A DNA stretch of 32,857 nucleotides from Acidobacteriota bacterium. GTDB taxonomy: Bacteria > Acidobacteriota > Terriglobia > Terriglobales > Acidobacteriaceae. Below, piece after piece: positions 6,782 through 25,269 of this stretch. The notes under the pieces are model-generated. The model saw only the letters and a list, made by a program, of their open reading frames with translations. It had not been told where the DNA came from and searched no databases. Every line of letters starts with the position of its first letter. Positions within the stretch are counted from its first letter, which is position 1. Made by a program: the position numbers and the translations under genes. The stretch is taken from the NCBI GenBank assembly GCA_021785495.1, contig JAJYFB010000013.1, forward strand, positions 1 through 32,857, in the 5' to 3' direction.

Positions 6782-9214
6782 TCATTCCTCGCGCAGAAGG
6801 ATCAGAGGGTCCACGGCCAAAGCGCGCTGCGCTGGCATCCAGGCCGCCACGAGCCCCAGCAGCAGCATCGCGGCCACCACTCCGCCCAGCACCAGCGGAT
6901 CGCGCGGCGTAGCCTGGTAGACGATGTGCGCCAACACGCGCGCGCCCAACACGCCCAGCGCGATGCCCGCAGCCGAACCCATGGCGAGCAAGCGCAGCGC
7001 GCGTCCCAGCGCCGTCTGCAGAACTTCGCGCCGCCCCGCGCCCAGCGCCACGCGGATTCCCAGCTCGCGCATCCGCTTGCTGACCACATACGAAGCCATG
7101 CCGAAGACGCCCGTCACCGCCAGCATCGCGCCCAGCAGGCCCAGCACGCCCAACGCCACCGTGGCCACGCGCGAAACGAAGAGAGCCCAGTCCATGGCGC
7201 GATCCCAGGGGGCGATCGTCAGCGGCAAACTGGAATCCAGTCCGTGCATGGCGCGATCGAGCGCCTGCGCCATCTCCCGCGGATCGCGACTGGAGTGCAC
7301 CACCAGCGTCGTCTCGCTCCCGCGATGCTGCTCGAAGGAAAAGAACATCGCGGACTGCGGATCCTCCGTGATGGTGCGATATTTGCCGTCTTCCACCACG
7401 CCGACCACCTCCGCACGGTTGCCGCTCCAGAACTTGAAGTGCCCGCCGATGGCCTTCTGGACGGATCCGAAGACCCTCACCGCGAAGGTGCGGTTGACCA
7501 GCGCCACGGTGGGCGCCTTGTCGTTATCGTCGAAGCGCAAATCGCGGCCGGCCACGAGCCGCGTGCCCGCGGCGGCCAGATAGCCCGGCGAAATGTTGTA
7601 ATTCAGGGCGTCGGCTGCCGCGTTGATCGGCCGGTAGTCGGTGGTCGTGTCGAAAAATACGTCGGAATCGTTGCCGGATGGCCCCAGTGGCACATGATTG
7701 ATCAAACCAACCGCTGTAACCCCAGGAATGGCCTTCGCCGCGTCGAACATGCGCCGCTGCAGAGCCGGGTCATCCTGTTCCTTGTAGCCGGCCATCTGCA
7801 AGTCGGTCTCCGCCAGCGTGACGTTCCGCGGCTGGAATCCGTAGTTGCCGTGCAGGGCCCGCAGCAGGCCACGCACCGCAACCAGCGATGAGGTCACCAG
7901 CAGGGCGCAGATGGCGATCTGCACCACAAGCAGAAGATCGCGCAGAGCAAACCTCTTCACGCCGCCCCCTCCGGCCGAGCCGGTGCGAATCGTCTGCCAC
8001 GGATCGGCGCGCAGCACCTGGCCGACGGGTAGGATGCCAAAAAGCAACCCACTCAGAATCGCCAGCAGCAGCGCCACGGCGTAGGTGCGCAGATCGGGAT
8101 TCACCGGAACGTTGATGGGTGTGCCCGCGATGGGATGCCATGCGCTGAGGGCGCGCAGGGCGAAGAGTCCGCCCGTGAGACCCACCGCGCCTCCCGCAAG
8201 CGAGACCAGCAGCGCCTCGGTCAGCAATTGACGAAGGATGGTTGCGCGCCGCGAACCAAGCGCCAGCCGCAGGGCCACCTCTTTGGCGCGGTCAGCCGCG
8301 CGGGCCGCGAACAGGCTGCCCAGATTGGCGCAGGCCGCCAGCAGAATCAAACCGGCCAGCAACATCAAAACGGTCATGAACGCTCTGGCAGGCTTGCCAA
8401 GCATGTCGCCCACAAGTCCGGGCCGGGCCAGGCTGAAGCGAATGCCGGCGTCATCCTGCGGGTAGGTCTTGGCCAGCCATGCGCCGAGCGCGTTCAGATC
8501 GGAGGCGGCTTGCTCCGGCGTAACGCCCGGTTTGAGCCGGCCGATCACCCACGCACTGTTGTTGCCGCGGTATTGCAGTCCGTTGACGCCGTTCACCGTG
8601 GGCTCCTCGACAATCGGCATCCAGAAGGTCGGAGCAAACATCAGTTCCGTGCTGCGAAACGAGGATGGCGCCACGCCGAGGATCGTGAAGGGATGCTTGT
8701 TGATCTCGACCTCGCGTCCGATCACGCCCGCATCGTGGCGAAAATAGCCGTTCCAGAAGGCATAGCTGAGGACAACATAGGGCGCGCTGTTGTAGCCTTT
8801 CTCGTCCGATGCGTGAAAGAAACGGCCCAAATAAGGCTGGATGCCCAGCGTGTCGAAGTAATTGCCGCTGGCCAGATAGGGCCATGCCGTCGTCGGATTG
8901 CCGCCGGCATCCACGCCCACCGCGCCTAAGACTTGATATTCGACAAGACTCTCGAAGGTGCGGTTGCGATCGCGCAGATCGAGATAATCGAGATAGGAAA
9001 GCGAGGGCGACGGCCCGAAACTCGGCCAGATGCGCTGCACCATATACAGGTTCTGCGCCCGCGGCACGTTCACCGGCCGCAGGATCAGTGCGTTCAGAAC
9101 GCTGAAGACCACGCAGTTGGCGCCGATGCCGAGCGCCAGCGTCACAATGGCGGTCGCGGTGAAACCAGGTGCTTTGCGCAACTGCCGCAGCGCGAGTCGT
9201 AGATTGCCGAGCAT
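6782..9214 (-). CDS. ADOP-type ABC permease (duplicated MacB/FtsX), divergent copy
   Basis: An 810-residue inner-membrane permease with two MacB-type periplasmic domains and two FtsX domains. Residues 1-35 show the ADOP start LRLALRQLRKAPGFTATA with the first membrane helix. A periplasmic core domain follows to about 270, FtsX helices at about 275-410 (containing RAADRAKEVALRLALGS), a second helix/core pair at about 425-680, and final FtsX helices at about 685-800 with RMRELGIRVALGAGRRE. The C-terminus VDPLILLREE is the divergent equivalent of IDPMQALRTE in the three plus-strand paralogs. ATG 9214 is preceded by GAGGAGAG. It lies divergent from the efflux operon and shares its upstream region, but has no ATPase gene of its own, so it may borrow one of the operon ATPases (inference). 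It is clearly less similar to the other three at both termini. Confidence 0.93.
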   Translation of the reverse strand: MLGNLRLALRQLRKAPGFTATAIVTLALGIGANCVVFSVLNALILRPVNVPRAQNLYMVQRIWPSFGPSPSLSYLDYLDLRDRNRTFESLVEYQVLGAVGVDAGGNPTTAWPYLASGNYFDTLGIQPYLGRFFHASDEKGYNSAPYVVLSYAFWNGYFRHDAGVIGREVEINKHPFTILGVAPSSFRSTELMFAPTFWMPIVEEPTVNGVNGLQYRGNNSAWVIGRLKPGVTPEQAASDLNALGAWLAKTYPQDDAGIRFSLARPGLVGDMLGKPARAFMTVLMLLAGLILLAACANLGSLFAARAADRAKEVALRLALGSRRATILRQLLTEALLVSLAGGAVGLTGGLFALRALSAWHPIAGTPINVPVNPDLRTYAVALLLAILSGLLFGILPVGQVLRADPWQTIRTGSAGGGGVKRFALRDLLLVVQIAICALLVTSSLVAVRGLLRALHGNYGFQPRNVTLAETDLQMAGYKEQDDPALQRRMFDAAKAIPGVTAVGLINHVPLGPSGNDSDVFFDTTTDYRPINAAADALNYNISPGYLAAAGTRLVAGRDLRFDDNDKAPTVALVNRTFAVRVFGSVQKAIGGHFKFWSGNRAEVVGVVEDGKYRTITEDPQSAMFFSFEQHRGSETTLVVHSSRDPREMAQALDRAMHGLDSSLPLTIAPWDRAMDWALFVSRVATVALGVLGLLGAMLAVTGVFGMASYVVSKRMRELGIRVALGAGRREVLQTALGRALRLLAMGSAAGIALGVLGARVLAHIVYQATPRDPLVLGGVVAAMLLLGLVAAWMPAQRALAVDPLILLREE

Positions 9215-9361
9215 GAATGGCTCTCCTCGATGGATGAGATTACGAGCATTTCCTGCGCAATGTTCCGCACGCTGAGGACCAAACCGTCCGGCTCAAAACA
9301 AAGCAGTTGCAACGGCGCGCGCAGCACCCAGCGTCCGGAATCGAAATTTGCCGTCCGAAAG

Positions 9362-9385
9362 CGGACAGTCCGCGCCGACTGTCCG
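9362..9385. promoter_or_regulatory. Inverted repeat, probable activator binding site
   Basis: Perfect 9-bp arms CGGACAGTC-N6-GACTGTCCG. A further related site CGGACAGTTTTCCGG lies at 9411-9425, and GTCCG-N4-CGGAC overlaps the left arm. The centre is about 130 bp upstream of the sigma-54 -12 element, a normal distance for an enhancer site. The NtrC-type regulator encoded at the end of the same operon is the natural candidate to bind it (inference). The site lies between divergent genes and could also affect the minus-strand permease. Confidence 0.6.
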
Positions 9386-9490
9386 AAATCGAACGGTCAT
9401 TTATTAAAAGCGGACAGTTTTCCGGCCGGCGCAGGCGGATGCTCCGGCGAGAACGCATTTCTTTTTCTACGTTTGCGCCCCTCGCCGGTT

Positions 9491-9506
9491 TGGCGCGCCA
9501 GATGCT
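9491..9506 (+). promoter_or_regulatory. Sigma-54 -24/-12 promoter of the efflux operon
   Basis: TGGCGCGCCAGATGCT matches the consensus TGGCRCG-N4-WTGCW, with the GG and GC dinucleotides exactly 10 nt apart (GG 9492-9493, GC 9504-9505). Transcription would begin near 9516-9518, only a few bases before ATG 9520, implying a nearly leaderless adaptor mRNA. A sigma-54 activator encoded downstream in the same operon supports the call. Confidence 0.72.
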
Positions 9507-9519
9507 CTACTGTTGGGCG

Positions 9520-10788
9520 ATGGACATTGCACGCCCCGATCGATTGCTCAAGAAGAAGCGCCGGATGATGATCTGGTCCGGCGTCGCGGCGATAACTTTG
9601 GCGGCGCTTGCCGTCGCGGTCATGCGTCTCAAGCCAGCCGCACCCACGGTGGATCGCTCGACGATCTGGACAGACACGGTCAAGCGCGGGCCGCTGGTGC
9701 GCCAGGTGCGCTCCTCGACCGGCGTTCTGGCGCCGCGCGAGGACTCGATCGAGTTGATTCCGGCCCAGACCGACGCCACCGTGGTGCGCATCCGCATTCT
9801 GCCCGGCGCCGAGGTCACGCCGGAGACGGTGATTCTGGACCTCAACGACCCCGAGCTCGATCAGCAACTGCTGAACGCGCGCCTCGCGCTCAAGGCGGCC
9901 CAGGCCGACTATAAAAGCCTTCAGGCGCAGCTTGAAAGCACGTTAATGGATAAGAAGACGGCCGCCGCGCAGGTCAACGCCAGCTATGCGCAGGACCAGC
10001 TCCAGGCGCAGACCGACAAGGCGCTCTACGATCTGGGCGTCCTCTCCGGCCTCGCTTACGAGAAGTCGAAGAGCACGGCCGACCAGTTGACTGCGCAGCA
10101 CCGGCTCAGCCAGGAGCAGCTCGCCGTCAATCGCAAGGCGATCGCCATCCAGCTTGCCTCGCAGCAGACGAAGATCGACCAGGCGCAGGCGCTGCTCGAC
10201 CTCTACGAAAAGCAGGAGCGCGCGCTCGAAGTGCGTTCGACGATCGCCGGAACGCTGGCCCCGCTGGCCACACCCCTGCAGGTGGGCCAGCACGTAACGG
10301 CGGGAACCAGCGTGGCCGAGGTCATCCAGAGCGGCAAGCTGAAGGCCGCCCTGCAGATCGCCGAGACCCAGGCGCGCGACATTCAGCTCGGCCAGCCGGC
10401 CTCCATCGACACGCACAATGGAGTGATTCCCGGTCATGTGACGCGCATCGATCCCGCGGTCGTGAACGGAACGCGCACCGTCGACGTACAACTGGATGGG
10501 CCGCTGCCGCCGGGCGCGGTGCCGCAGTTGAGCGTCGATGGCACCATCGATCTCGAACGCATGAGCGATGTGCTCTACGTCGGCCGGCCGGCGCTGGGCA
10601 ACGAAAACTCCACGCTGAGCCTGTTCAAGGTCGATCCCGACGGCAAGGGCGCCACGCGCGTCTCCGTTAAGGTTGGCCGCGCCTCGGTCAACGAGATTCA
10701 GGTGCTCTCCGGCTTGAAGGAAGGCGACACGGTGATCCTCTCCGACATGTCGCGCTGGGACAGCGTGGACCGCATCCGGCTGGAGTGA
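9520..10788 (+). CDS. HlyD/MacA-type periplasmic adaptor (membrane fusion protein)
   Basis: Links the inner-membrane ABC permease to the TolC-type channel across the periplasm. A short basic cytoplasmic tail (RLLKKKRRMM) is followed by one membrane anchor (about residues 17-36). Then come a first half-lipoyl strand set (about 50-105), a long alanine/glutamine-rich coiled-coil hairpin (about 105-245), the second lipoyl half (TIAGTLAPLATPLQVGQHV) and beta-barrel and membrane-proximal domains to 422. I start at ATG 9520 (MDIARPDRL) because an earlier in-frame ATG at 9502 and all upstream sequence fall inside the sigma-54 promoter. First gene of the operon. A 262-bp repeat-filled gap separates it from the first ATPase gene. 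MacA-like by context; the transported substrate is unknown. Confidence 0.92.
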   Translation: MDIARPDRLLKKKRRMMIWSGVAAITLAALAVAVMRLKPAAPTVDRSTIWTDTVKRGPLVRQVRSSTGVLAPREDSIELIPAQTDATVVRIRILPGAEVTPETVILDLNDPELDQQLLNARLALKAAQADYKSLQAQLESTLMDKKTAAAQVNASYAQDQLQAQTDKALYDLGVLSGLAYEKSKSTADQLTAQHRLSQEQLAVNRKAIAIQLASQQTKIDQAQALLDLYEKQERALEVRSTIAGTLAPLATPLQVGQHVTAGTSVAEVIQSGKLKAALQIAETQARDIQLGQPASIDTHNGVIPGHVTRIDPAVVNGTRTVDVQLDGPLPPGAVPQLSVDGTIDLERMSDVLYVGRPALGNENSTLSLFKVDPDGKGATRVSVKVGRASVNEIQVLSGLKEGDTVILSDMSRWDSVDRIRLE

Positions 10789-11027: not shown

Positions 11028-11050
11028 GACAGATGACCACCGGAGCCACC

Positions 11051-11785
11051 ATGCCATCGAACGGAACGCTGATTGAAATCGAAGAGCTGACCAAAGTCTT
11101 CTACACCGACGAAATCGAAACCCACGCGCTCTCCGGCATTCATCTCACCATCGCGCGCGGCGAGTACGTGTCGATGTCGGGCCCTTCGGGCTGCGGCAAA
11201 TCCACGCTGCTGTCGATCCTGGGCCTGCTGGACACGCCCACCGGCGGCCGCTACGTGTTGAACGGCAAGCCGGTCGAGAATCTGAGCTTCGGCGAGCGCT
11301 CGCGCATCCGCAACCAGGAGATCGGCTTCATCTTTCAGAGCTTCAACCTGATCGGCGACCTGACCGTCGAGGAGAACGTGGAGCTGCCGCTTACCTATCG
11401 CGCCGGAATGCCCTCGGCCGAGCGCAAGAAGCGCGTGAAAGAGGCGCTGGGGCGCGTGAACATGGCGCATCGCATGAAGCACTATCCGGCGCAGCTCTCG
11501 GGCGGTCAGCAGCAGCGCGTGGCCGTGGCGCGCGCCCTGGCCGGCTCGCCCTCGATCCTGCTCGCCGACGAGCCCACCGGAAACCTCGACTCCAAAAACG
11601 GCGAGGCCGTGATGCGCCTGTTGAGCGATCTGCACCGCGAGGGCTCGACCATCTGCATGGTCACGCACGATCCGCGCTTCGCCCGCCACGCCGAGCGCGA
11701 GCTGCACCTGTTCGACGGCAAGATCGTCAGCGAACAAGAGATGAAGAAGCTCGAAGAAGAAGCCCAGACCGAGGCCGAAGCATGA
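11051..11785 (+). CDS. ABC transporter ATP-binding protein (MacB/LolD type), first copy
   Basis: Cytoplasmic ATPase driving the FtsX-type permeases. Walker A GPSGCGKST (residues 44-52), Q-loop FQSFNL (95-100), signature LSGGQQQR (149-156), Walker B plus D-loop ILLADEPTGNLD (169-180) and H-loop THD (205-207) are all intact. The 244-residue length is normal for a stand-alone LolD/MacB-type ATPase. ATG 11051 is chosen over ATG 11033 because GGAG at 11042-11045 sits five bases before it, and the earlier ATG directly follows the heptamer repeat. Its stop overlaps the next permease start in ATGA, so the two are translationally coupled and this ATPase most directly serves that permease. Confidence 0.95.
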   Translation: MPSNGTLIEIEELTKVFYTDEIETHALSGIHLTIARGEYVSMSGPSGCGKSTLLSILGLLDTPTGGRYVLNGKPVENLSFGERSRIRNQEIGFIFQSFNLIGDLTVEENVELPLTYRAGMPSAERKKRVKEALGRVNMAHRMKHYPAQLSGGQQQRVAVARALAGSPSILLADEPTGNLDSKNGEAVMRLLSDLHREGSTICMVTHDPRFARHAERELHLFDGKIVSEQEMKKLEEEAQTEAEA

Positions 11786-14202
11786 CCCTGCTCAATGATC
11801 TAAGCTACGCCCTGCGCCAGTTGCGCAAGTCGCCGGGGTTTGCCTTGGCGGCCGTGCTCTCACTCGCCATCGGCATCGGCATCAACACCGCCATGTTCAG
11901 CAGCATGGACGCGGTGGTGCTGCATCCGCTGGCGGTTCCGCGGCTGGACCGCGTGGTGAATCTCTCCGAACAGAGTCCTCTCAGCGTCTATGAACGGGTG
12001 GCGTTGGCCAACTACGAAGACTGGACGCGTCAAAGCCGTTCGTTCGCATCGTTCGCCATCCGCAGCGAAGCCGCCATGACGCTGACCGGCAGCGGCGACG
12101 CCGCGCAGGTAGCGGCCACCCTCACTTCGGCCAGTTTCTTCCATGTTCTTCGTGCTCGCCCGCTTCTGGGCCGCGTGTATGGCGAGGAGGAATGTCATCC
12201 GGGGCGGAATTCGGTGGCCGTCCTGTCCTATGGACTCTGGAAGCGGAAATTCGGCGCCGACCTGGGCGTCCTGGGCCGCACCATCACGCTTGATCAGCAC
12301 AATTACACGGTCATTGGCGTGATGCCGAAGACCATGCAGTACCCGTCGTGGACCGATGTCTACCTGCCGCTGGCGCCCTCGCCCGAGCAGCTCGCCGACC
12401 GCGCCACGCACAGCTACTTCGGCCTTGCGCGGCTGCGCGATGGAGTGACGATTCATGAGGCGCAGGCGGAGATGCGGACCCTCGCCGAACGGCTCGCCCG
12501 GGCCTATCCCGCGACCAACGCGGGCAGGTCGGTTCACGTCGAGTCGCTTCTCGACAACATCAACGGCCCGGAGACGCCGCTCTACTATCGGCTCATCTTC
12601 GGCGCAACCCTGTTCGTTCTGCTGGTGGTCTGCGCCAATATCGCCAATCTGCAATTGGCGCGCGGCATCGCCCGCCGGCCGGAAATCGCCATGCGCACCG
12701 CGCTCGGCGCCGATCGCACGCGCATTCTCCGCCAGTTGCTTACGGAAAGCATTCTGCTCAGCCTTATCGGAGCCGCCGGGGGAATCGGCGTCGCGAAGCT
12801 CTATGACCATTACCTCATGGCTTCCATGCCGGCCAGGGTGGCGCGCTACATGCCCGGATGGTCGAATACCGGCTTGAATGCACGCGTCCTGGCGTTTTCG
12901 CTGGCGCTGGCAATCGTCTCCGGTGTAATTGCCGGCGTCGTTCCGGCGCTCGATGCATTGCGCGTCGATCCCGCCAGTCAACTCAAGGCCGGCGCACGTT
13001 CCGCTCTGGGCGCGGGAAGCGCCCACCGGCTGCGCAGCATCTTCGCCGTGGTGCAGATCGCGCTCGCGGTGGCGCTGGTCATCGGCGCCGCTCTCATGTC
13101 GAAGGGCATGGACGCCTGGCTGCACGCCGCCGACATCTACGCGCCCGGCAAGATGCTGACCTTCAGCGTCAATCTTCCCGCCGCGCGCTTCGACACGCCG
13201 CAGAAGCGCGCCCAATGGTACGCGGAGAGTCTCGACCGGCTGCGCGCCCTGCCCGGCGTCACCCACGCGGAACTCACCACGGCGCTGCCGTACAACGACA
13301 ACGCGTGGAATCGCGAAATTGAGATCGAAAATCGCTCGACGGCGCCAGGCAAGTTCCAGGACGCGCTGGATCTTCCCGTGACGCCGGGTTACTTCGCCAT
13401 GCTGCGCATTCCGATTCTGGCGGGCCGCGGTTTCGACCGCAGCGACGCCATCGGCTCGACGCCGGTCGCCATCGTGAGCGAGCGTTTCGCGGCGCAATAT
13501 TTTCCCGGCGAGAATCCCCTCGGTCATCGTATTCGCATGGGCGGAAGCGACAGCAAGGAAGCGTGGCTGACCATTGTGGGCGTCGCCAAAGAGACGAGCT
13601 ATTCCTTGTGGGACCAGACGCCTCGCGCCGCCGTGTACATGGACTCCATGCAGTTGCCGCCCAAGGGCACGGAGTATGCCGTGACCACCGAGGGCGATCC
13701 GCTGGCGCTGGCGCCTGCGGCGCGCAAGGCGCTGGCCGCGATCGATCCGCTGCTGCCGCTCAACACCGTGGAGAGCTACGCGCAAATTCAGGACGACAAT
13801 TTGACCGGGCTGAAATACGCCGCGGGCACGCTCGTCGTGGACGGCGTGATTGCCCTGTTGCTGGCCGCCATCGGCATCTTTGGCGTGATGGCCCATCTGG
13901 TCGGCGAACGCACGCGCGAGATCGGTCTCCGCCTCGCGATGGGCGCCAGCCGCAAAGACATACTCGGCATGATTCTGCGCCGTGCTTCCTGGCTGACCGG
14001 CGTGGGTCTGATCGCCGGCTTGGCGCTCGCCCTGGGGCTCGCACGCCTCACCGCGAGCCTGTTCGTCGGCGTGCGTCCCGACGACCCGCTGGTCTTTGCC
14101 GGCATCGCATCGATCGTTACCGCCGTGGCGCTGTTTGCAAGCTACCTCCCCGCCCGCCGCGCCGCATCCATCGATCCCATGCAGGCGCTGCGCACGGAAT
14201 AA
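11782..14202 (+). CDS. ADOP-type ABC permease, operon copy 1
   Basis: An 806-residue duplicated MacB/FtsX permease. The start LSYALRQLRKSPGFALAA leads into helix 1. A periplasmic core domain follows to about 265, then FtsX helices (about 270-410, with RRPEIAMRTALGADRTR), a second core domain (about 440-670) and a final FtsX domain with GERTREIGLRLAMGASRKD. It ends SIDPMQALRTE. The ATGA overlap with the preceding ATPase gene indicates direct coupling. The TIGRFAM ADOP family was defined as usually lacking neighbouring ATPase genes, so this arrangement is notable. A 30-bp stretch near the 5' end (11812-11841) is identical to one in operon copy 3. Confidence 0.95.
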   Translation: MTLLNDLSYALRQLRKSPGFALAAVLSLAIGIGINTAMFSSMDAVVLHPLAVPRLDRVVNLSEQSPLSVYERVALANYEDWTRQSRSFASFAIRSEAAMTLTGSGDAAQVAATLTSASFFHVLRARPLLGRVYGEEECHPGRNSVAVLSYGLWKRKFGADLGVLGRTITLDQHNYTVIGVMPKTMQYPSWTDVYLPLAPSPEQLADRATHSYFGLARLRDGVTIHEAQAEMRTLAERLARAYPATNAGRSVHVESLLDNINGPETPLYYRLIFGATLFVLLVVCANIANLQLARGIARRPEIAMRTALGADRTRILRQLLTESILLSLIGAAGGIGVAKLYDHYLMASMPARVARYMPGWSNTGLNARVLAFSLALAIVSGVIAGVVPALDALRVDPASQLKAGARSALGAGSAHRLRSIFAVVQIALAVALVIGAALMSKGMDAWLHAADIYAPGKMLTFSVNLPAARFDTPQKRAQWYAESLDRLRALPGVTHAELTTALPYNDNAWNREIEIENRSTAPGKFQDALDLPVTPGYFAMLRIPILAGRGFDRSDAIGSTPVAIVSERFAAQYFPGENPLGHRIRMGGSDSKEAWLTIVGVAKETSYSLWDQTPRAAVYMDSMQLPPKGTEYAVTTEGDPLALAPAARKALAAIDPLLPLNTVESYAQIQDDNLTGLKYAAGTLVVDGVIALLLAAIGIFGVMAHLVGERTREIGLRLAMGASRKDILGMILRRASWLTGVGLIAGLALALGLARLTASLFVGVRPDDPLVFAGIASIVTAVALFASYLPARRAASIDPMQALRTE

Positions 14203-14226
14203 CCCGCCTTCCAAGGAGAGAAACAG

Positions 14227-16680
14227 ATGAACGGACTCATTCATGATCTGCGCTACGCGCTGCGGCAATTGCGCCGCGCGCCGGGATTCGCGGCGACGGC
14301 GGTCCTGACGCTGGCGCTTGCCGTGGCCGCGCTGACGACGGTCGCAACCTGGACCAACGCCGTGCTCTTCAATCCCTGGTCGCGGGTTGAAAAGCCAAGG
14401 GATCTGCGTTTCCTCTCGGCCACCGTGCTGGGTTCGACCGGCTACTCGGTCGGATACGGCCAGTTCGAGTTCGTGCGCAAGCAATCGCGGAGTTTCTCGG
14501 ACGCGGCCGCCTTCAATCTCATCCAGATCAGCCTGGCCGCGGACGATGCAGAAGCGCGCGCCATTTGGGCCGGCGAAGTGTCCTCCGGCTACTTCCGGCT
14601 GCTCGGAGTCGAGCCCCAGCTGGGCCGCTTCTTCGATCCGGACGCATCCGACCGCGCCTACGGCCAGCATGACGAGATCATTCTCTCCGACGCCCTCTGG
14701 CGTTCGCGCTTCAACGCCGATCCGGCGGTCGTCGGCCGCTCCATTTCGGTGAACCGTCATCAGTTCACCGTGATCGGCGTGGCGCCGACGCACTTCGCCG
14801 GGGTCTACGGAGGTGTTGCCGAGTCGGCTTGGATTCCGCTCTCGGCGACTCGTTCGCTCTCGGCCGATCCACCGGCCGATCCGCTCGCCCGCTTCGGTCT
14901 GCAAGTTGTCGTACGCCTGCGTCCCGCCGTCTCCGATGCTCTCGCCACAGCCGAGGTCCATCAGCTTGCCCGCCGCTTCGCTGTGCAACATTCCGACGAG
15001 AACCTGAACGGATGGGATCTGAACCTGAACGACGCCGCTCACTTCACCCGCGGATACTTCGACATGATCGGAGAGCAGTTGCCGGTGCTCTACGGAGCCT
15101 CGCTCCTTCTGATGCTTCTGGTTGCCGTTAACATCTCGTCGTTGCTCGGCCAACGCGCCGCCCGAAACCGCCGCGAGGTGGCGATTCGCACGGCATTAGG
15201 CGCTCCACTCAGGCGCATCGCCGCGCAGATTCTCATGGAAACGTCGCTGCTTGCCGCGGCCGGAGCTTTCTTCGGCTGGCTTGCGTCTCTCGGGCTTTCG
15301 CGCGTGTTATATGTGCTGCTGCCGAGTTTCGGAGCAGCGCTGGCTTTCAACCTCGATCCCGGTCCGCGCATCTTTTTCTTCATCGCGACGCTTGCCACCC
15401 TGCTCACGCTGACCTGCGGCATGATGCCGGTCCTTCAGTCGCTGCGCGCCTCGCAGAAAGATGCGATCAACGCGGGCGGAGCAGCCGTGGTCGGCGCTGG
15501 GCGCAAGCAGTTCGCCCGCCGCACAGTGCTTGGCATGCAACTTGCGCTCTGCTTTGTGGTTCTGGTCTGCAGCGGCCTGATGACGCGTACGGCATTCAAC
15601 ATCATCACGCGTCCGCTTGGATTCAACCGGGCGAACTGCATGACCGCCGAGATCCATTTCACGCGCTCCGCCTACACCGCGGACCAGGCCCGCGTCTTCC
15701 GCCAGACGCTTGCCGATCGCCTGCGCGCGCTGCCCGGCATCACCGGCGTCACGTATAGCTCGCATCTGCCCATGTCGGACGAGGGCAGCGGCAATACACA
15801 GGCGTTCTCCGTTCCCGGCTATACGCCCACCAAGGGCGAGGAGATGGATGTCGTCACCGACTTCGAAGGACCGAGGTTCTTCCGCACCATCGGCATCGCC
15901 CTGCTCCGCGGCCGTGACTTTATGGCGAGCGACACCACGCAGTCTACCCCGGTGGCCATCGTCAACGAAGCCATGGCCCTCAAGTACTGGCCCCGCGGCG
16001 ACGCGCTCGGCCGCAGCATTGTCTACAACAAAAAGTCCTGGCAGATCGTCGGCATCGTCCCTCCGTTCATATATCACGATCCTGCGGACACTGGCCCTAT
16101 GCCGCTGCTCTTCCTGCCCATGGAGCAAACACACGAAGGCAGCTACACGCAGTTTGCTGTTCGTTCTCAATTGAGCTCTTCTGCGCTTGCCTCCGGCATG
16201 CGCCAGGTTGCCGCCTCGCTCGACCGCGCTCTGCCCTTGGAAAACCTTGAGAGCTACGGCGAAGTCGTCGACCAGATGTTTCAGATATACCGTCTGCCCG
16301 CCGAACTGCTCATTGTTTACGCCATAGCAAGCCTGATTGTCGCGATGCTTGGCCTCTACGCCGTGATGTCCTACGCTGTTGTCGAGCGCAGCCGCGAATT
16401 CGCTCTGCGCATGGCGCTGGGTTCAACGCGCGCCAGCATCTTCCGCCTGGTTCTCGGCGGCAACGCCGCTGTGCTCATGATCGGCCTGGTCGCAGGCTCG
16501 CTCGGCTGCTACGGCGCGGTGCGTCTGTTGCGCTCCATGCTCTTCGGCGTCACCCTTTCCGATCCGCTGACCTACTGCGCTTCGGCAGCAGTTCTCGTGG
16601 TCACCATTCTCTTTTCTGGCCTGGCGCCAGCGCGCCGCGCCGCTTCCATCGACCCCATGCAGTCGCTGCGCACGGAATAA
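14227..16680 (+). CDS. ADOP-type ABC permease, operon copy 2
   Basis: An 817-residue paralog with the same two-core, two-FtsX plan. N-terminus LRYALRQLRRAPGFAATA, first FtsX region with RRNREVAIRTALGAPLRR, last with ERSREFALRMALGSTRAS, C-terminus SIDPMQSLRTE. AAGGAGAG seven bases before ATG 14227 is a good ribosome site. It follows copy 1 by 24 bp. The first helix is slightly different from its sisters (LALAVAALTTVATW in place of the usual LGIGANT type), which suggests an older divergence. The role within the transporter relative to copies 1 and 3 cannot be read: alternative substrates or a heteromeric permease are both possible. Confidence 0.94.
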   Translation: MNGLIHDLRYALRQLRRAPGFAATAVLTLALAVAALTTVATWTNAVLFNPWSRVEKPRDLRFLSATVLGSTGYSVGYGQFEFVRKQSRSFSDAAAFNLIQISLAADDAEARAIWAGEVSSGYFRLLGVEPQLGRFFDPDASDRAYGQHDEIILSDALWRSRFNADPAVVGRSISVNRHQFTVIGVAPTHFAGVYGGVAESAWIPLSATRSLSADPPADPLARFGLQVVVRLRPAVSDALATAEVHQLARRFAVQHSDENLNGWDLNLNDAAHFTRGYFDMIGEQLPVLYGASLLLMLLVAVNISSLLGQRAARNRREVAIRTALGAPLRRIAAQILMETSLLAAAGAFFGWLASLGLSRVLYVLLPSFGAALAFNLDPGPRIFFFIATLATLLTLTCGMMPVLQSLRASQKDAINAGGAAVVGAGRKQFARRTVLGMQLALCFVVLVCSGLMTRTAFNIITRPLGFNRANCMTAEIHFTRSAYTADQARVFRQTLADRLRALPGITGVTYSSHLPMSDEGSGNTQAFSVPGYTPTKGEEMDVVTDFEGPRFFRTIGIALLRGRDFMASDTTQSTPVAIVNEAMALKYWPRGDALGRSIVYNKKSWQIVGIVPPFIYHDPADTGPMPLLFLPMEQTHEGSYTQFAVRSQLSSSALASGMRQVAASLDRALPLENLESYGEVVDQMFQIYRLPAELLIVYAIASLIVAMLGLYAVMSYAVVERSREFALRMALGSTRASIFRLVLGGNAAVLMIGLVAGSLGCYGAVRLLRSMLFGVTLSDPLTYCASAAVLVVTILFSGLAPARRAASIDPMQSLRTE

Positions 16681-16703
16681 TCCGCGACCGAGGAGATGAA
16701 TCG

Positions 16704-19160
16704 ATGAACGGCCTGATTCGCGATCTCAATTACGCTCTGCGCCAGTTGCGCAAGTCGCCGGGGTTTACGCTGACCGCGGTGCTTACGCTGGCGCTCGGGA
16801 TTGGAGCTACCACGGCTATCTTCACGCTGGTCTACGATGCGATGCTCAAGCCGTTGCCGTATCCGCACCCCGAGCGCCTCGTGGTCGCCGAAGAGCAGGT
16901 GGCGGAGTTTCGGGACATCTATCCCAAATTGCCGATGAGCGCCAATCATTTTGCGATGTGGCGGCAGCACGCGCGCAGCTTTCAGTCGTTGGCGGTGATG
17001 GAGGAGGAATCGGAGCCGCTGGGACTGGGCGGGCATCCGCTGAAGGTGGAGGTAGTGCGCGCGACGCCGGGAATCTTCGCCGTGCTCGGTGTGCAGCCGC
17101 GGCTCGGCCGCGCCTTCACCGAACAGGAGGCGCAGCCTGGACGCGAGCGCGAAATCGTGTTGATGCACGATCTCTGGCGGACGCAGTTCGGAAGCGATCC
17201 GCAGGTGGTGGGAAAGACCGTCACGCTGAACGGATTTCCTTACACGGTCCTCGGCGTGATGCCGGCCTCGTTCCACCTGCCGATGGCGGATAACATCGCG
17301 GTTCCGAATGCGGATCGCGCACGGCCGGTTCAGGCGTTGATTCCCCTGGCCTTCACCAAACAACAGCTTGCGGAAGCAATGGGCGACTTCAACTACTTCG
17401 GTCTGGCGAGGCTCAAGCCAGGCGTCTCCGCGACACAGGCCGGCGCGGAGGTCAACGCGCTGCAGCACAGCATTTCGGCCGCGCTTCCCGCCGATGAAAA
17501 AGGCACGCTCTCCGCCGTGTTGACGCCGTTTCAGCAGGCGCTGGTCGGCAACAACCGCAAGCCCCTGCTCATTTTGCTGGCCGCGGTGGCGGGATTGCTG
17601 CTGGTCGGTTGCATCAACATGACGAATCTGCTCCTCTCGCGGGCGATCGCCCGCCGGCAGCAGTTGACCATTGTCTCCGCTCTGGGCGCGAACCGCGCCG
17701 AGATGCTGCGCGCCTCCATGAGCGAGCCGGCGGTGCTGGCCGGCCTGGGCGGTGCGTTTGGCATTTTGCTGGCGTCCGCGCTTGTGCCGTTGATGCAGCG
17801 TTTTCTTCCGCCTGCGCTCGACTTCCGGGGAGCGTTGCATCTGGACTGGACCGGAGCCGCCTGCGCCGTTTTGCTTGCCGTGGCGGCAACGCTCCTGGCC
17901 GGAGCCCTTCCCGCTTGGATCGGGGCGCGCGCCAATCCGGCCGATGTGCTGCGCGGCGATTCGCGGCAGGCGGGTGAATCGCGCTCCAGCAAGCGCGCGC
18001 GCAAATCGCTCGTCGCGGCGGAAGTCGCCGTCAGCGTAACGCTGGTGCTGTTCACCGGACTGCTCGTCACGAGCCTGGCGCGGCTGATGAGCATCGATCG
18101 CGGCTTCGCGACCGATCACGTCATTACTGCCGAGATCGACCTGCCAGGCAAGTCGTATTCCGGCACGACCGCCGCCGAGGGATTCTACCGGCGTGTGCTG
18201 GAGCGCTTGCGCCAGCTTCCGGGCGCGTCTCAAGCAGGCTTGGTCAGCGTGCCGCCGCTCGGCGGCGATTTCTGGATTGATATGATTCGCGTCGCAGACG
18301 ACTCACGGCCGTTCATGCAGCTTCCCACAGAGCATTTCCGCTGGATCAGTCCCGGTTATCTGGAGGCCATCCATCTGCCGCTGGTCGCCGGACGCGATCT
18401 GACTTCTTCGGACCAGGGTAAGAACTACGCTCTCGTCTCGGAGCGAACGGCGCGCACCCTCTGGCCCGGCGCCGATCCGATCGGCAAGCAGTTCCATCGC
18501 GCGGGCTATGTCGAGCAGCCTCCCTTCACCGTGATCGGCGTGGTGCGCAACGCGCGCACGATCTCGCTCGCCGCGCCCGACCCCATGATGGTGTACATGC
18601 CCTACTGGGTGCGCTGCGACGATACGGGCAGCATCGTTCTGCGCACCGGCCAGGATCCGGTTGCAATGGCCGCCGAGCTGCGCAAGGCGGTCTGGAGCGT
18701 GGACCCCGGTGCATCGGTGCCCACGGTGCGCACGCTGGGCGGAATCGCCGCGGATTCGGTGGCCAATCGCCGCTTTGAGATGGACCTGCTTCTGCTGTTC
18801 GCCGTGAGCGCGCTGCTGCTGGCCGGGCTGGGCGTCTACGGCGTGGCGACTTACTCGGTCGCGCAGCGGCAGCATGAGATCGGTCTGCGGATGGCGCTGG
18901 GCGCGCAGCGGGCAGGCATCTACCGGCTGGTGCTCGGCGAGGGACTCCTGCCGGTTCTGATGGGCGCGGCCGCGGGAGTCGCCGTGGCCTTCGCGTGCGA
19001 GCGCCTGATCGGCAGCCTGCTGTTCGAGGTGAACCCCTTCAACCCCGCGATTGCGGCCAGCGCAGTGGCCGTGCTGGTTGCGGTGGGAATCACCGGTTGC
19101 CTGCTCCCGGCCCACCGCGCTGCGGCAATCGACCCCATGCAGGCTCTGCGCAACGAATAA
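16704..19160 (+). CDS. ADOP-type ABC permease, operon copy 3
   Basis: An 818-residue paralog, starting LNYALRQLRKSPGFTLTA and ending AIDPMQALRNE. FtsX signatures are RAIARRQQLTIVSALGAN in the first half and RQHEIGLRMALGAQRAG in the second. The start ATG 16704 follows GAGGAG at a slightly long spacing and lies 23 bp after copy 2. Its first 30-nt coding block at 16737-16766 is identical to copy 1 at 11812-11841, while copy 2 differs there, suggesting gene conversion or a more recent split between copies 1 and 3. The second ATPase gene follows 21 bp later. Confidence 0.94.
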   Translation: MNGLIRDLNYALRQLRKSPGFTLTAVLTLALGIGATTAIFTLVYDAMLKPLPYPHPERLVVAEEQVAEFRDIYPKLPMSANHFAMWRQHARSFQSLAVMEEESEPLGLGGHPLKVEVVRATPGIFAVLGVQPRLGRAFTEQEAQPGREREIVLMHDLWRTQFGSDPQVVGKTVTLNGFPYTVLGVMPASFHLPMADNIAVPNADRARPVQALIPLAFTKQQLAEAMGDFNYFGLARLKPGVSATQAGAEVNALQHSISAALPADEKGTLSAVLTPFQQALVGNNRKPLLILLAAVAGLLLVGCINMTNLLLSRAIARRQQLTIVSALGANRAEMLRASMSEPAVLAGLGGAFGILLASALVPLMQRFLPPALDFRGALHLDWTGAACAVLLAVAATLLAGALPAWIGARANPADVLRGDSRQAGESRSSKRARKSLVAAEVAVSVTLVLFTGLLVTSLARLMSIDRGFATDHVITAEIDLPGKSYSGTTAAEGFYRRVLERLRQLPGASQAGLVSVPPLGGDFWIDMIRVADDSRPFMQLPTEHFRWISPGYLEAIHLPLVAGRDLTSSDQGKNYALVSERTARTLWPGADPIGKQFHRAGYVEQPPFTVIGVVRNARTISLAAPDPMMVYMPYWVRCDDTGSIVLRTGQDPVAMAAELRKAVWSVDPGASVPTVRTLGGIAADSVANRRFEMDLLLLFAVSALLLAGLGVYGVATYSVAQRQHEIGLRMALGAQRAGIYRLVLGEGLLPVLMGAAAGVAVAFACERLIGSLLFEVNPFNPAIAASAVAVLVAVGITGCLLPAHRAAAIDPMQALRNE

Positions 19161-19181: not shown

Positions 19182-19880
19182 ATGATCGAACTGAAGAATG
19201 TCGAACGAAGCTACAAGAACGGACACACCGAGGAGTGGGTGTTGCGGCGCATCGGCCTCACGATCCGCGAAGGGGATTTTGTCACCGTCATGGGGCCGTC
19301 GGGCGCGGGAAAGTCGTCGCTGCTCAACATTCTGGCCATGCTCGACGACGGCTGGAAGGGCGAGTACTGGTTCGGCGGCGAGGCCATTCACGCGCTCAAC
19401 CGCAAGCAGCGGGCCGACGTAGCCCGCGCGCGTATCGGCATGGTCTTTCAGAGCTACCACCTGCTCGACGACCTGACCGTCGCCGAAAATATCGAGTTGC
19501 CGCTCTCGTACAAAAACCTCGCGCCGAAGGATCGCGCCGGCATGGTCGCCGATATTCTCGATCGATTCCGGATTGTCGCCAAAAAAGACCTCTTTCCTTC
19601 GCAGCTTTCCGGCGGGCAGCAACAGCTTGTCGGCATCGCGCGCGCCGTGGTGCACGCGCCGGCGCTGCTTTTGGCCGACGAGCCCACCGGCAACCTCCAC
19701 TCCACGCAGGGCCGCGAGATCATGCAGCTCTTTAGCGAGCTCAACCGCCAGGGCACCACCATCGTGCAGGTCACGCACTCGGAAGACAACGCGCGCTACG
19801 GCCAGCGCCTCGTCGAATTGCGTGACGGCTGGCTCACGCGCGACGAAACTCGACAAGCAACCGCGGCAGAAGCCAGATGA
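19182..19880 (+). CDS. ABC transporter ATP-binding protein, second copy
   Basis: A second MacB/LolD-type ATPase of 232 residues with Walker A GPSGAGKSS (38-46), Q-loop FQSYHL (89-94), signature LSGGQQQL (142-149), Walker B LLLADEP (162-168) and H-loop THSE. The D-loop reads GNLHS where the family has GNLDS: the conserved D-loop Asp is His173 (CAC 19698-19700). This may alter coupling between the two ATP sites. The first ATPase in the operon keeps the Asp, so a heterodimer with one degenerate interface is conceivable (inference). ATG 19182 has GGGAG upstream. It sits between permease copy 3 and the TolC-type gene. Confidence 0.94.
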   Translation: MIELKNVERSYKNGHTEEWVLRRIGLTIREGDFVTVMGPSGAGKSSLLNILAMLDDGWKGEYWFGGEAIHALNRKQRADVARARIGMVFQSYHLLDDLTVAENIELPLSYKNLAPKDRAGMVADILDRFRIVAKKDLFPSQLSGGQQQLVGIARAVVHAPALLLADEPTGNLHSTQGREIMQLFSELNRQGTTIVQVTHSEDNARYGQRLVELRDGWLTRDETRQATAAEAR

Positions 19881-19915
19881 ACGGCCATCCTACGCAATTC
19901 TCCGGGGAGACACGC

Positions 19916-21919
19916 ATGAATCTTCGTCCTTCCAAATCCGCAGTCATCCGCCTCCAAGCGGTTGCTGCGATCTTTTTGCTGCAAGTGAATCTGGCCTTCG
20001 CATCGGAATCTCCGCAAACACAATCCGCACCGGAGGCCCCGGCGCCCGCGACGAGCGCGACTGCTGCCGCACCCAAGCCAACGCTGGCGCAGGCGATCGA
20101 GCAGGAACCGCGGCTGGCTTTTACGCCTCAGCAACCTTTCAGCGTGCCCATGCCCCACTCCTACAATCCACTCGAGCGCTACCGGCCCAGCACGGCGCCG
20201 TCCCTCAATCTCGCCAACTCGCCTCGCCTCGAGAGCCTTATTCGCGATGGAAAGATCTATCTTTCCCTGCGCGACGCGATTGCCCTTGCCATCGAGAACA
20301 ACCTCGATCTCGCCTACTTTCGCTATAACTTCCCGATCGCGCAAACGGATATTCAGCGCACCAAGGCGGGCAGCCCGGCAAACGGCGTCAATGCCACCGT
20401 TGTGCAATCCACCCAGGGCGGTTTCAGCTCTTCCGGCGTCGGTGGCGGCGGAGGTGGTTCTACCATGTCGGCCGCCGCAGGCAATGGCGGCATCGTCACG
20501 TCGACTCTCGGCGAAGGAACCGCAGTTCCTTCCTTCGATCCTTACCTCACCTTCCAGGGCTACGTTGATCACACCGTCGTGCAGGAGGCGAACACCTCGC
20601 TCGTCGGCACGCCGATTCTCAAGACCAACACCATCGAGGTACTGTCGAGCTACTCGCAGTCTTTTCCCATCGGCACGAATCTCGCAGTCAACTATATGGG
20701 CCAGCGCGCCGCTAGCAACTCGCCGTATAACGCCATCAATCCCGACCTGTACAGCAGGTTTCAGGTGGTTGTTTCGCAGCCTTTTCTGTATGGCTTCGGG
20801 CTCTCCACCAATGAGCGGTACATCCGCATCGCCAGGCGCAACGCCCAGATCACCGACGTCGTCTTCAAAGCGCAGGTCATCGCCACCGTGACCCAAATCG
20901 AGAACATCTATTGGGATCTGGTCGACTCGTTCGAAAACGAGCAGATCAACGAGCGTTCGCTGGGCTTCGCCAATAAGACGCTCTCCGACGATCGCAAGCA
21001 GCTCGCGCTCAACGCCATCCCCGCCATGCAGATCATGACCGACCAGTCCGCGGTAGCGACGGCCGAAGGCAACCTGACCGTTTCGCGCGCCAATCTGCGT
21101 TTGAACGAGCTGATGATGAAGAACGCTCTCACCAAGGTTGACGATCCCATCATCGACGAGATGCCTGTCATTCCTCTCGGCATCGCTGGAGGACCGGACC
21201 CGAACGCCGGCAAATCCATCGACGAGCTGATCGCCGAGGCAGAGAAGAAGCGGCCGGAGGTGGCCATCTACCGGATGCAGGCCGAAGTGCAAAAGCAGGC
21301 GCTCAAGGACATCAACAGCGAACTCTTGCCCACCCTGAATATGTACGGCCTCTACGCTGGCGCGGGTACGGCGGGACCGAAAAACGCCTTCTGCAGCACA
21401 CAGGCAGTCGACTGTGCCACCGGTCTACCTACCGGCTTCGGCGGCATGTTCGCCAACACCTTCAACGACTCGTCGCCGGAGTACCAGGTGGGTGTGACGC
21501 TTTCCATCAATCTGCGCAACCGCCAGGCCAAAGCCGACCAATTTCGTGCAGTGCTGCAGTACCGGCAGAGTCAGATCTCCGAAGTACAACAGAAGAAAAC
21601 CATCCTCTTCGACGTGCGTAACTCCAAGTTCGCTCTTGAACAGGCCGAGGCCCGCGTGGAAGCGGCCCAGGAAGCGCGCGACCTGGCCAAGAAGACCTTT
21701 GAGATCACCAGGCAGGAACAACAGCTCGGCGCCAAGTCCAGCGTCGATACGTTGAACGCGGAGAGCGCGCTCGCCCAGGCAGAAGCAACTCTCGACAACG
21801 CGCAAACGGCCCTGGAAAAAAGCAAGATTGACATTGACCGCGCCATCGGCGACACCCTGGAGCGCACAGGCGTGTCGATCGAGGATGCGAAAATGGGAGT
21901 CGTGGCGGAGGAGCAGTAA
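19916..21919 (+). CDS. TolC-family outer membrane efflux protein
   Basis: Outer-membrane channel of the tripartite exporter. A signal peptide (RLQAVAAIFLLQVNLAFA) is followed by a proline/alanine-rich linker and then two outer-membrane efflux protein repeats. The first (about residues 110-360) begins LRDAIALAIENNLDLAY. The second (about 420-650) contains the long coiled-coil helix rich in AEAR/AQEAR. ATG 19916 is preferred over ATG 19877 because GGGGAG lies seven bases upstream and the signal peptide follows directly. The earlier ATG would add 13 residues before it and overlaps the ATPase stop. An unusual glycine-rich insert (VGGGGGGSTMSAAAGNGG) lies at about 180-197. At 667 residues it is longer than E. 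coli TolC. Confidence 0.93.
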   Translation: MNLRPSKSAVIRLQAVAAIFLLQVNLAFASESPQTQSAPEAPAPATSATAAAPKPTLAQAIEQEPRLAFTPQQPFSVPMPHSYNPLERYRPSTAPSLNLANSPRLESLIRDGKIYLSLRDAIALAIENNLDLAYFRYNFPIAQTDIQRTKAGSPANGVNATVVQSTQGGFSSSGVGGGGGGSTMSAAAGNGGIVTSTLGEGTAVPSFDPYLTFQGYVDHTVVQEANTSLVGTPILKTNTIEVLSSYSQSFPIGTNLAVNYMGQRAASNSPYNAINPDLYSRFQVVVSQPFLYGFGLSTNERYIRIARRNAQITDVVFKAQVIATVTQIENIYWDLVDSFENEQINERSLGFANKTLSDDRKQLALNAIPAMQIMTDQSAVATAEGNLTVSRANLRLNELMMKNALTKVDDPIIDEMPVIPLGIAGGPDPNAGKSIDELIAEAEKKRPEVAIYRMQAEVQKQALKDINSELLPTLNMYGLYAGAGTAGPKNAFCSTQAVDCATGLPTGFGGMFANTFNDSSPEYQVGVTLSINLRNRQAKADQFRAVLQYRQSQISEVQQKKTILFDVRNSKFALEQAEARVEAAQEARDLAKKTFEITRQEQQLGAKSSVDTLNAESALAQAEATLDNAQTALEKSKIDIDRAIGDTLERTGVSIEDAKMGVVAEEQ

Positions 21920-21969
21920 GCGGCAGGTCTCTGCCGCAACGAACATGCTGAGCGTCGTGGAGGTGTGCC

Positions 21970-23337
21970 ATCTCGAACAAGCGCGACAAAATTCGGGTCC
22001 TGGCCGCCGACGATCAGCCGCATATTCTCGAAGCGGTCGAGCTGCTCCTCAAGCCGCAGGGAATCGATGTCGATTGCGTTCGCTCGCCGCAGTTGCTGAT
22101 GGAGGCACTGGGCGAGCGCGATTATGATGTCGTACTCATCGATCTCAATTACACGCGCGATACCACCTCCGGCCAGGAAGGTCTCGGCCTCCTTGCGCAG
22201 ATTCAGGATTTCGACGCGCGGCTTCCGGTCATCGTGATGACCGCGTGGGGTAACATCGATCTGGCCGTCGAGAGCATCAAGCGCGGTGCGCGCGATTTTA
22301 TCCAGAAGCCCTGGGAGAACGAGCGACTGCTCTCCCTTGTCCGCGTCCACGCCGAATTACATCAAGCGTTGCGCCGCGCCCGCCAGCTTGAACTCGAAAA
22401 CCGCCTGCTTCGCGCCGAGGGTATGCCCGACTTCGTTGCATCCGCTTCTTCCATGCAACTGGTCCTCGAACTCATCTCCAGGGTCGGGCCCTCCGACGCA
22501 AACGTCCTCATCACCGGTGAGCACGGCACGGGTAAAGAGATCGTCGCGCGCCTGCTCCATGCCGCATCGCCGCGCGCGCGCATGCCCCTGGTCGCGGTCA
22601 ATGCCGGCGGAATGCCCGAAGGAACGTTTGAAAGCGAGTTCTTCGGCCATGTCAAGGGCGCGTTCACCGATGCGCGCACCGACCGCCTGGGTCGCTTCGA
22701 TCTGGCCAACGGCGGCACGCTCTTTCTCGACGAGATCGCCAACGTTCCGCTGCGCCAGCAGGCCAAACTCCTGCGCGTGCTCGAAACCGGCGAGCTTGAA
22801 CGAGTCGGCTCCTCGCAGACCCGCCGCGTCGACGTGCGCCTTCTCTGCGCCACCAACGCTCCACTGCATGATGAGGCCAAGGCTGGCAACTTCCGAGAAG
22901 ACCTGCTCTTTCGCATCAACACCGTTGAAATTCACCTGCCGCCGCTGCGCGAACGGCGCGAGGATATTCCGCCGCTCGCCGGGCATTTTCTCGCGCGGCT
23001 GCGCACCCGCTATCGTAAACAGGTTGACGGCATCTCCGCCGCTGCCATGCACCTCATGATGCAGTACGCCTGGCCTGGCAATGTGCGCGAACTGGAGCAC
23101 ACCATCGAGCGTGCGCTGCTCCTTTGCACGGGTGAGGAGATCGAGCCGGCCAATCTCTCGATCGGCGCCGGGCGCGCCGCCGCGCCCTCGCTCGACAACA
23201 TGAGCATCGACGAGATGGAGGCCATGCTCATCCGCAAAGTGCTCCGCCGCTGCGACGGCAACATCACCCAGGCCGCCGAGTCGCTCGGCCTGAGCCGCGC
23301 CGCGCTTTATCGTCGCATGGAAAAGTATGGCCTATGA
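21970..23337 (+). CDS. NtrC-type sigma-54 response regulator, probable ATC start
   Basis: Receiver domain, AAA+ sigma-54 activation domain and Fis-type HTH. The receiver has the acidic pair D14-D15, phospho-acceptor D58 (LIDLNY), T91 and K113. The AAA+ domain has Walker A GEHGTGKE (183-190), the sigma-54 contact loop as GAFTDA (230-235, normally GAFTGA), Walker B GGTLFLDE and the arginine-rich LLFRINT and LPPLRERREDI blocks. The HTH is GNITQAAESLGLSRAALYRRM. The receiver beta-1 strand and acidic pocket lie upstream of every ATG, GTG or TTG in frame after the stop at 21949-21951. The only well-placed initiator is ATC 21970, five bases after GGAGGT (21959-21964). TTG 22093 would delete the acidic pocket. 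Probably activates the operon promoter at 9491. Confidence 0.9.
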   Translation: MSNKRDKIRVLAADDQPHILEAVELLLKPQGIDVDCVRSPQLLMEALGERDYDVVLIDLNYTRDTTSGQEGLGLLAQIQDFDARLPVIVMTAWGNIDLAVESIKRGARDFIQKPWENERLLSLVRVHAELHQALRRARQLELENRLLRAEGMPDFVASASSMQLVLELISRVGPSDANVLITGEHGTGKEIVARLLHAASPRARMPLVAVNAGGMPEGTFESEFFGHVKGAFTDARTDRLGRFDLANGGTLFLDEIANVPLRQQAKLLRVLETGELERVGSSQTRRVDVRLLCATNAPLHDEAKAGNFREDLLFRINTVEIHLPPLRERREDIPPLAGHFLARLRTRYRKQVDGISAAAMHLMMQYAWPGNVRELEHTIERALLLCTGEEIEPANLSIGAGRAAAPSLDNMSIDEMEAMLIRKVLRRCDGNITQAAESLGLSRAALYRRMEKYGL

Positions 23338-25222: not shown

Positions 25223-25223
25223 G

Positions 25224-25245
25224 ACAGGCTTCAGCCGGTTCCTGT
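25224..25245. repeat. Small hairpin with GGCTTCAGCC core
   Basis: ACAGG (25224-25228) pairs with CCTGT (25241-25245) around a GGCTTCAGCCGG loop region. It shares the core of the other intergenic hairpins in the window and marks the junction between the pseudogene and the next gene. Confidence 0.45.
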
Positions 25246-25269
25246 AGGATGATCGGCGGAGACACTTTC

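Follow-up and report, generated by a model that had tools for sequence, protein, structure and literature searches.

A conserved sigma-54 promoter is predicted to start a near-leaderless export-system operon in the Acidobacteriaceae

The window (the whole stretch of DNA that was analysed, 32,857 nucleotides from a soil member of the Acidobacteriaceae) contains an export-system operon whose first gene, encoding a periplasmic adaptor, begins with the ATG at 9520. This gene is separated by 305 bp from a divergently oriented ADOP permease gene. The following genes and elements could be placed.

6782–9214, minus strand: divergent ADOP permease (TIGR03434, 754 bits), sharing the intergenic control region
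9266–9281, minus strand: -24/-12 element TGGTCCTCAGCGTGCG for the ADOP gene at 6782–9214; predicted leader 41 nt, with the Shine-Dalgarno (SD) sequence GAGGAG
9352–9367, no strand assigned: enhancer site A CGTCCGAAAGCGGACA, 11/12 matches to TGTCCG-N4-CGGACA; an extra upstream site for the adaptor
9362–9385, no strand assigned: perfect dyad CGGACAGTC-N6-GACTGTCCG, joining A's right half to B's left half
9380–9395, no strand assigned: enhancer site B TGTCCGAAATCGAACG, 10/12 matches, at the usual family position (-140 from the ATG)
9401–9416, no strand assigned: enhancer site C TTATTAAAAGCGGACA, 7/12 matches, right half only, at -119 and 21 bp from B
9491–9506, plus strand: sigma-54 -24/-12 promoter TGGCGCGCCAGATGCT, exact GG-N10-GC, conserved in orthologs
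9517–9519, plus strand: predicted 3-nt leader, with the start of transcription at 9517 within a few nucleotides (12 nt after the C at -12)
9520–10788, plus strand: HlyD/RND-type periplasmic adaptor, operon gene 1, predicted near-leaderless start (RND_mfp, 91 bits; conserved N-terminus)
11033–11785, plus strand: ABC ATPase 1, MacB/LolD/DarD-like (profile matches)
11782–14202, plus strand: ADOP permease 1 (TIGR03434, 849 bits, cut-off 622)
14227–16680, plus strand: ADOP permease 2 (TIGR03434, 665 bits)
16704–19160, plus strand: ADOP permease 3 (TIGR03434, 823 bits)
19182–19880, plus strand: ABC ATPase 2 (profile matches)
19877–21919, plus strand: TolC-type outer-membrane efflux protein (OEP domain; other matches below cut-off)
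21970–23337, plus strand: NtrC-type response regulator, presumed enhancer-binding protein, apparent ATC start (REC, AAA+ sigma-54 interaction, HTH_8)
23327–24697, plus strand: sensor histidine kinase (HAMP, PAS, HATPase_c)

All four permeases of the window pass the curated cut-off of TIGR03434, and the adaptor falls just below that of RND_mfp (94.9 bits). The REC, Sigma54_activat and HTH_8 domains of the regulator are those of an NtrC-type bacterial enhancer-binding protein (bEBP), with sequence relatives among the solved NtrC-family and ZraR chains; its GAFTGA loop, translated by eye, reads GAFTDA, a one-letter variant. The window's own genome carries rpoN (PF04552, E = 4.6e-58) and two HU/IHF-type genes. 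In composition (adaptor, ATPases, MacB-like permeases and a TolC-like channel) the operon resembles exporters of the MacAB-TolC and darobactin types and ADOP (TIGR03434) proteins, but its ATPases are split around variable orphan permeases and the matches lie below the Dar and MacB cut-offs.

The order adaptor, first ATPase, zero to five permeases, second ATPase, channel and regulator is kept in 27 of 29 relatives (17–20 kb each). In L134 two extra permeases lie between the second ATPase and the channel, and the stretch of L079 stops before the regulator, with no regulator match there. The regulator follows the channel gene in 28 of these 29 loci and the kinase comes next in 26; where either is missing, its expected place falls at the edge of the sequence stretch. 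The variable set of zero to five ADOP permeases between the conserved ATPases (11782–19160 in the window, and the 29 loci from L062 to L137) has the appearance of a cassette-like zone, its permeases mostly sharing about 30% identity with the window's, and the ATPases and regulator about 58–91%. At about 24800–25250 on the plus strand lies what looks by eye like a leftover piece of the gene for an FG-GAP/ASPIC-UnbV-like protein, lacking a proper start.

In sigma-54 promoters the C of the GC doublet is position -12, and transcription starts 12 nucleotides after it. The perfectly spaced -24/-12 element noticed in the initial annotation is present before the adaptor gene, and its C(-12) at 9505 places the predicted +1 at 9517, three nucleotides before the ATG, as that annotation had also proposed. 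Places scoring as high as TGGCGCGCCAGATGCT in the window, according to our own weighting, number three on the plus strand (the element itself included) and none on the minus strand. Adaptor orthologs were found in 110 of 200 family genomes. A GG-N10-GC element giving a predicted leader of 2–6 nt is seen in 97 of the 102 distinct usable family loci (2 nt in five, 3 nt in 32, 4 nt in 25, 5 nt in 25 and 6 nt in 10), and leaders of 0–7 nt arise in 3.8% of shuffled upstream regions. The 102 loci exclude some partial or contig-edge ortholog matches, L152 (no upstream sequence), duplicate upstream regions, and L121 and L148, whose start is uncertain. The five misses comprise a second copy without the element (L101), a stretch of Ns (L108), a locus without the element (L142) and two with predicted leaders of 11 nt (L141) and 8 nt (L147). 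A further set from public records, without the partial L336, left 79 loci, of which 22 shared their upstream region with earlier ones; the 57 new ones all carry GG-N10-GC with leaders of 2–6 nt. Conservation to this extent establishes the promoter and its spacing, from which the start at 9517, within a few nucleotides, is predicted.

Upstream of the adaptor, a G at -3 (65 of 97 loci) and a pyrimidine at -2 (80 of 97) are tied to the ATG and not to the promoter. The mRNA may begin at the conserved G, or these positions may act as a signal in translation.

The adaptor mRNA had also been supposed to lack an SD, and this holds across the family. None could be seen before the ATG at 9520, and SD-like tetramers precede the adaptor start at 10 of 97 loci, which equals the level in shuffled sequences (10.3%). 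The 5' end predicted from the promoters, 2–6 nt from the start codon, would be that of a leaderless mRNA, and the start codon itself is ATG at 93 of these loci and GTG at four. Folding is weak over the initial 40 nt of the predicted mRNAs (mean -3.5 versus -9.1 kcal/mol inside the gene), which fits leaderless initiation, yet is common at gene starts in general and not specific to it.

A different picture is given by adaptor relatives elsewhere in the phylum, 26 of 49 of which have a strong -24/-12 candidate. Nine of these 26 have leaders of 13–20 nt, all with an SD, six have leaders of 2–9 nt, and in eleven the element is at least 40 nt away and may be a chance occurrence. A usable start is available at 37 of the 49 loci, and 22 of them show an SD. 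In view of the longer, SD-bearing leaders of these relatives, a short leader lacking an SD has apparently been fixed in this family.

Enhancer and promoter were combined in one module (TGTYCR-N4-YGRACA-N65..95-TGG-N9-TGC), which occurs in 113 of 200 family genomes at up to nine places per genome; read backwards, the pattern matches nine places in all of them together. Scored by hand, the module is present in 101 of the 110 genomes with an adaptor ortholog versus 12 of the 90 without. The window's own genome is among the nine ortholog genomes with no exact match to the module, because site B ends in CGAACG and one half of site C is degenerate. Seventy module loci were inspected, 30 returned by the search and 40 taken in order among the matches listed, these 40 excluding adaptor promoters, one overlapping place and places already taken as loci. 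Downstream of the 70 lie 41 ADOP-like permease genes and eight adaptors, the dispersed ADOP-like genes of the relatives being assigned by tblastn only. The other 21 comprise 18 without a match to the operon's proteins, one response regulator, one partial adaptor and one partial permease. As a control, a wrong-register pattern (TGG-N10-TGC, with the spacing off by one, and TGTCCR instead of TGTYCR; matches in 30 of 300 genomes) gave two ADOP-like genes and one adaptor among 30 loci, with L159 and L168 covering only about 240 nt downstream.

These counts support the view that the module marks a regulon made up of the adaptor operon and ADOP-like permease genes. A scan for the original 9+9 repeat near other ADOP operons had been suggested; the regulon emerges with the corrected unit. 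From operon linkage and co-occurrence we infer that the operon's own regulator acts at these sites, against which the many paralogous regulators of these genomes have to be weighed.

Other targets are seen among the module loci. The module promoter of a hydrolase-like gene (L280, G183:C4:665564-667475; dienelactone-hydrolase-like by eye) gives a predicted leader of 1 nt, and the N-terminus of the product, MDIARPQITQKRKRRR, resembles that of the adaptor; it looks as if promoter, leaderless start and anchor had been copied as one piece. Proteins of a single family with GSGSG-type repeats, and a family of small proteins that begin MAxFExxRDxxxGPL, are found repeatedly (L278, L281, L290 and L220, L299).

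The ADOP-like genes of the regulon have an SD in 36 of 41 cases and a median predicted leader of 25 nt, with a predicted leader of 2 nt in two of them. Since they mostly keep their SD, the near-leaderless start is a property of the adaptor operon and not something that promoters of this kind bring with them. The same observation bears on the alternative that deserves most attention, namely that in the ancestor of the family promoter and start codon happened, by neutral chance, to come to lie close to each other, the SD having been lost and the arrangement kept by drift or by conservation of the promoter, with no special translational control. Descent alone could conserve the position, and outside the family the leader does vary, with nine of 26 promoters at 13–20 nt and an SD. 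Within the family, however, 97 of 102 loci, with protein identities as low as 46%, keep the 2–6 nt distance although the letters between -12 and the ATG vary, and this, together with the SDs retained in the same regulon, leaves the neutral account a serious possibility at somewhat less than even odds.

Translation of the adaptor might instead depend mostly on a longer mRNA from another promoter upstream, the sigma-54 start being minor. Basal expression of the regulator must indeed have some source, but even in the DNA, SD-like motifs are no more frequent ahead of the ATG than in shuffled sequences (10 of 97). A longer transcript would therefore in most cases still lack an SD, and we regard this alternative as improbable.

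Regarding the enhancer, an exact 9+9 repeat with an N6 spacer had been described together with a second related site to which no place was given. The repeat is there as described (CGGACAGTC at 9362–9370 and GACTGTCCG at 9377–9385). Perfect 9+9 repeats with spacers of up to 10 number seven in the window versus 0–4 in ten shuffles, and one appears in 42 of 2000 shuffles of the 305-bp intergenic stretch; the perfect repeat alone is weak evidence, and conservation is strong evidence. What the family conserves is the unit TGTCCG-N4-CGGACA, matched at 10/12 or better in 88 of the 97 upstream regions versus 19 of 1940 shuffles. Measured from the ATG, the best match falls at -136 to -143 in 71 of the 97 loci and two helical turns closer, at -115 to -118, in 14; the other 12 have it elsewhere. 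In 85 of 97 loci it is accompanied by a partner of 7/12 or better at a distance of 20–21 bp (6.3% when shuffled). In the window, the half-site CGGACA of site C at 9411–9416 fits the second related site of the initial annotation. Thus the enhancer stands, in the form of TGTCCG-N4-CGGACA, and the 9+9 register does not, for it joins half of A to half of B. The repeat as such was rejected as the operator, and an unrelated dimeric regulator recognizing it is a very remote prospect: exact as the repeat is, orthologs conserve the other unit, and the dyad arises from the neighboring sites A and B, which lie at a distance of 28 bp. IHF-like sites of at least 8/9 near -58 are enriched in the relatives (40 of 97 versus 5.7% in shuffles); no good one was found in the window (best 6/9), and for this reason none is claimed there.

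Hardly credible is a mis-assigned adaptor start, with translation from a downstream codon such as the ATG at 9565 and a leader of about 48 nt, for although the window has two ATG codons at codons 16–17, M1, D2, I3, R5, P6 and D7 are invariant in 14 orthologs and the region after the assigned ATG varies mainly at third codon positions in 97 loci.

On the other side of the intergenic region, TGGTCCTCAGCGTGCG is one of three GG-N10-GC places on the minus strand within 260 bp and the only one that begins with TGG. Site A is located at -168 from the adaptor ATG and at about -104 from the predicted divergent start. As the divergent ADOP gene has a -24/-12 element of its own, site A may serve that side of the region.

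The start of the regulator gene is also unusual. Upstream, its reading frame is closed by a stop at 21949, and the first ATG, GTG or TTG comes only at 22093, where a start would cut 41 residues off the receiver domain, and an ATC at 21970 sits behind GGAGG. Among the best 30 of 59 genus genomes, 25 loci have ATC (13) or ATT (12) behind an SD at this place; the remaining five have another codon there, with an ATG close by. Ten of the 30, the window included, contain no ATG, GTG or TTG anywhere from the stop in frame up to codon 9. In other genera, canonical starts in range are usual for the regulator. AUU or AUC behind an SD without a canonical alternative is the arrangement of infC-type starts, and infC of the window's genus itself shows GGAGG and ATC in 20 of 20 loci (from 20 of 21 genomes), some also with canonical codons further upstream. 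The regulator gene differs from infC in that it encodes a two-component regulator and not IF3, and in that the trait is clear only in the window's genus. In this genus, then, the gene apparently begins at ATC or ATT, and gene callers limited to ATG, GTG and TTG would misplace its start.

According to the available part of the review PMC4611024, IF3 antagonizes leaderless mRNAs and discriminates against AUU and AUC. Both properties, set beside a near-leaderless first cistron and a regulator start at AUC/AUU in the window's genus, raise the rather unlikely idea that the operon might be gated by initiation factor IF3 as well as by sigma-54. In that case efficient production of exporter and activator would require a disturbance of initiation (little IF3 in proportion to ribosomes or IF2, 70S initiation, or antibiotics that act on 30S initiation), SD-bearing co-regulated orphan permeases would escape the gating, and the operon would unite a transcriptional switch with a sensor of initiation fidelity.

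The arrangement shares with NtrC-type bEBP/sigma-54 regions the -24/-12 GG-N10-GC element, rpoN, a REC-AAA-HTH regulator, paired dyads 100–130 bp upstream and two helical turns apart, and, in 40 of 97 relatives, an IHF-like site between the dyads and the promoter region. It differs from them in an enhancer word that the searches linked to no described regulator, in a start predicted 2–6 nt from the ATG and, in the window, in a two-way control region. The operator of GlrR/QseF is TGTC-N10-GACA. Although the TGTC...GACA half-sites and the response-regulator bEBP recall that system, the spacing here is TGTC-N8-GACA and the regulator scores 296 bits against an NCBIfam equivalog cut-off of 763; it does not classify as GlrR/QseF. 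As in the leaderless mRNAs described in the accessible portions of PMC4611024, PMC3160421 and PMC4842269, the adaptor message would have its AUG at the 5' end, preceded by no more than a few bases, and no SD. Leaderless sets elsewhere are reported, in the same portions, with sigma-70-like -10 boxes at about -12 (PMC3160421) or with TGnTA (PMC4842269), unlike the adaptor operon, which is predicted to depend on sigma-54 and an activator. The open-access literature searched returned maps of transcription start sites, reviews and single studies, and no conserved sigma-54-driven leaderless operon; the available text of PMC3616915, PMC4842269, PMC5243855 and PMC12403871 describes none driven by sigma-54, and their tables could hold single cases.

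Enhancer, sigma-54 promoter and near-leaderless, SD-less mRNA, the combination proposed at the outset, are strongly supported by family-wide conservation. The reading we favor, with a probability of about 0.78, is that of a two-way sigma-54 region under a self-controlling switch, with a near-leaderless adaptor operon that forms one regulon with SD-leadered permeases. A signal would pass through the histidine kinase to the NtrC-type regulator, the two-component switch at the far end of the operon. Once activated, the regulator would bind TGTCCG-N4-CGGACA (on the adaptor side B with the degenerate C, and for the divergent permease probably A) and drive sigma-54 RNA polymerase at the -24/-12 elements, so that both promoters would be melted. 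Transcription on the adaptor side would begin about 3 nt before the ATG; the mRNA would therefore carry no SD, and ribosomes would have to recognize the 5'-end AUG directly, as on leaderless mRNAs, a mode of recruitment which, like the reason for it, we infer. Regulator and kinase, encoded at the operon's end, would provide positive feedback. In the relatives, dispersed ADOP permease genes with ordinary SD leaders would be driven by the same module, so that operon and orphan permeases would constitute one regulon in which only the operon's first cistron is initiated in the leaderless way.

The basal activity of sigma-54 promoters is low. A suggested benefit of leaderless starts, given in the available part of PMC3160421, is that transcripts leaking from upstream stay untranslated; with both properties combined, a tight switch would result.

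A near-leaderless operon predicted to be driven by sigma-54 is thus kept in nearly all family orthologs examined. With SD-bearing regulon targets as internal controls and some leadered relatives outside the family, the effect of leader loss would be directly testable. For one metagenome-assembled genome, the accessible text of PMC10564751 gives 102 acidobacterial orphan permeases and suggests a role in transport. ADOP proteins are MacB-like permeases without a fused ATPase, and the regulon would tie these orphan permeases to an operon with genes for two ATPases, the adaptor and the channel of the outer membrane. This link offers a testable answer to the question of their power source.
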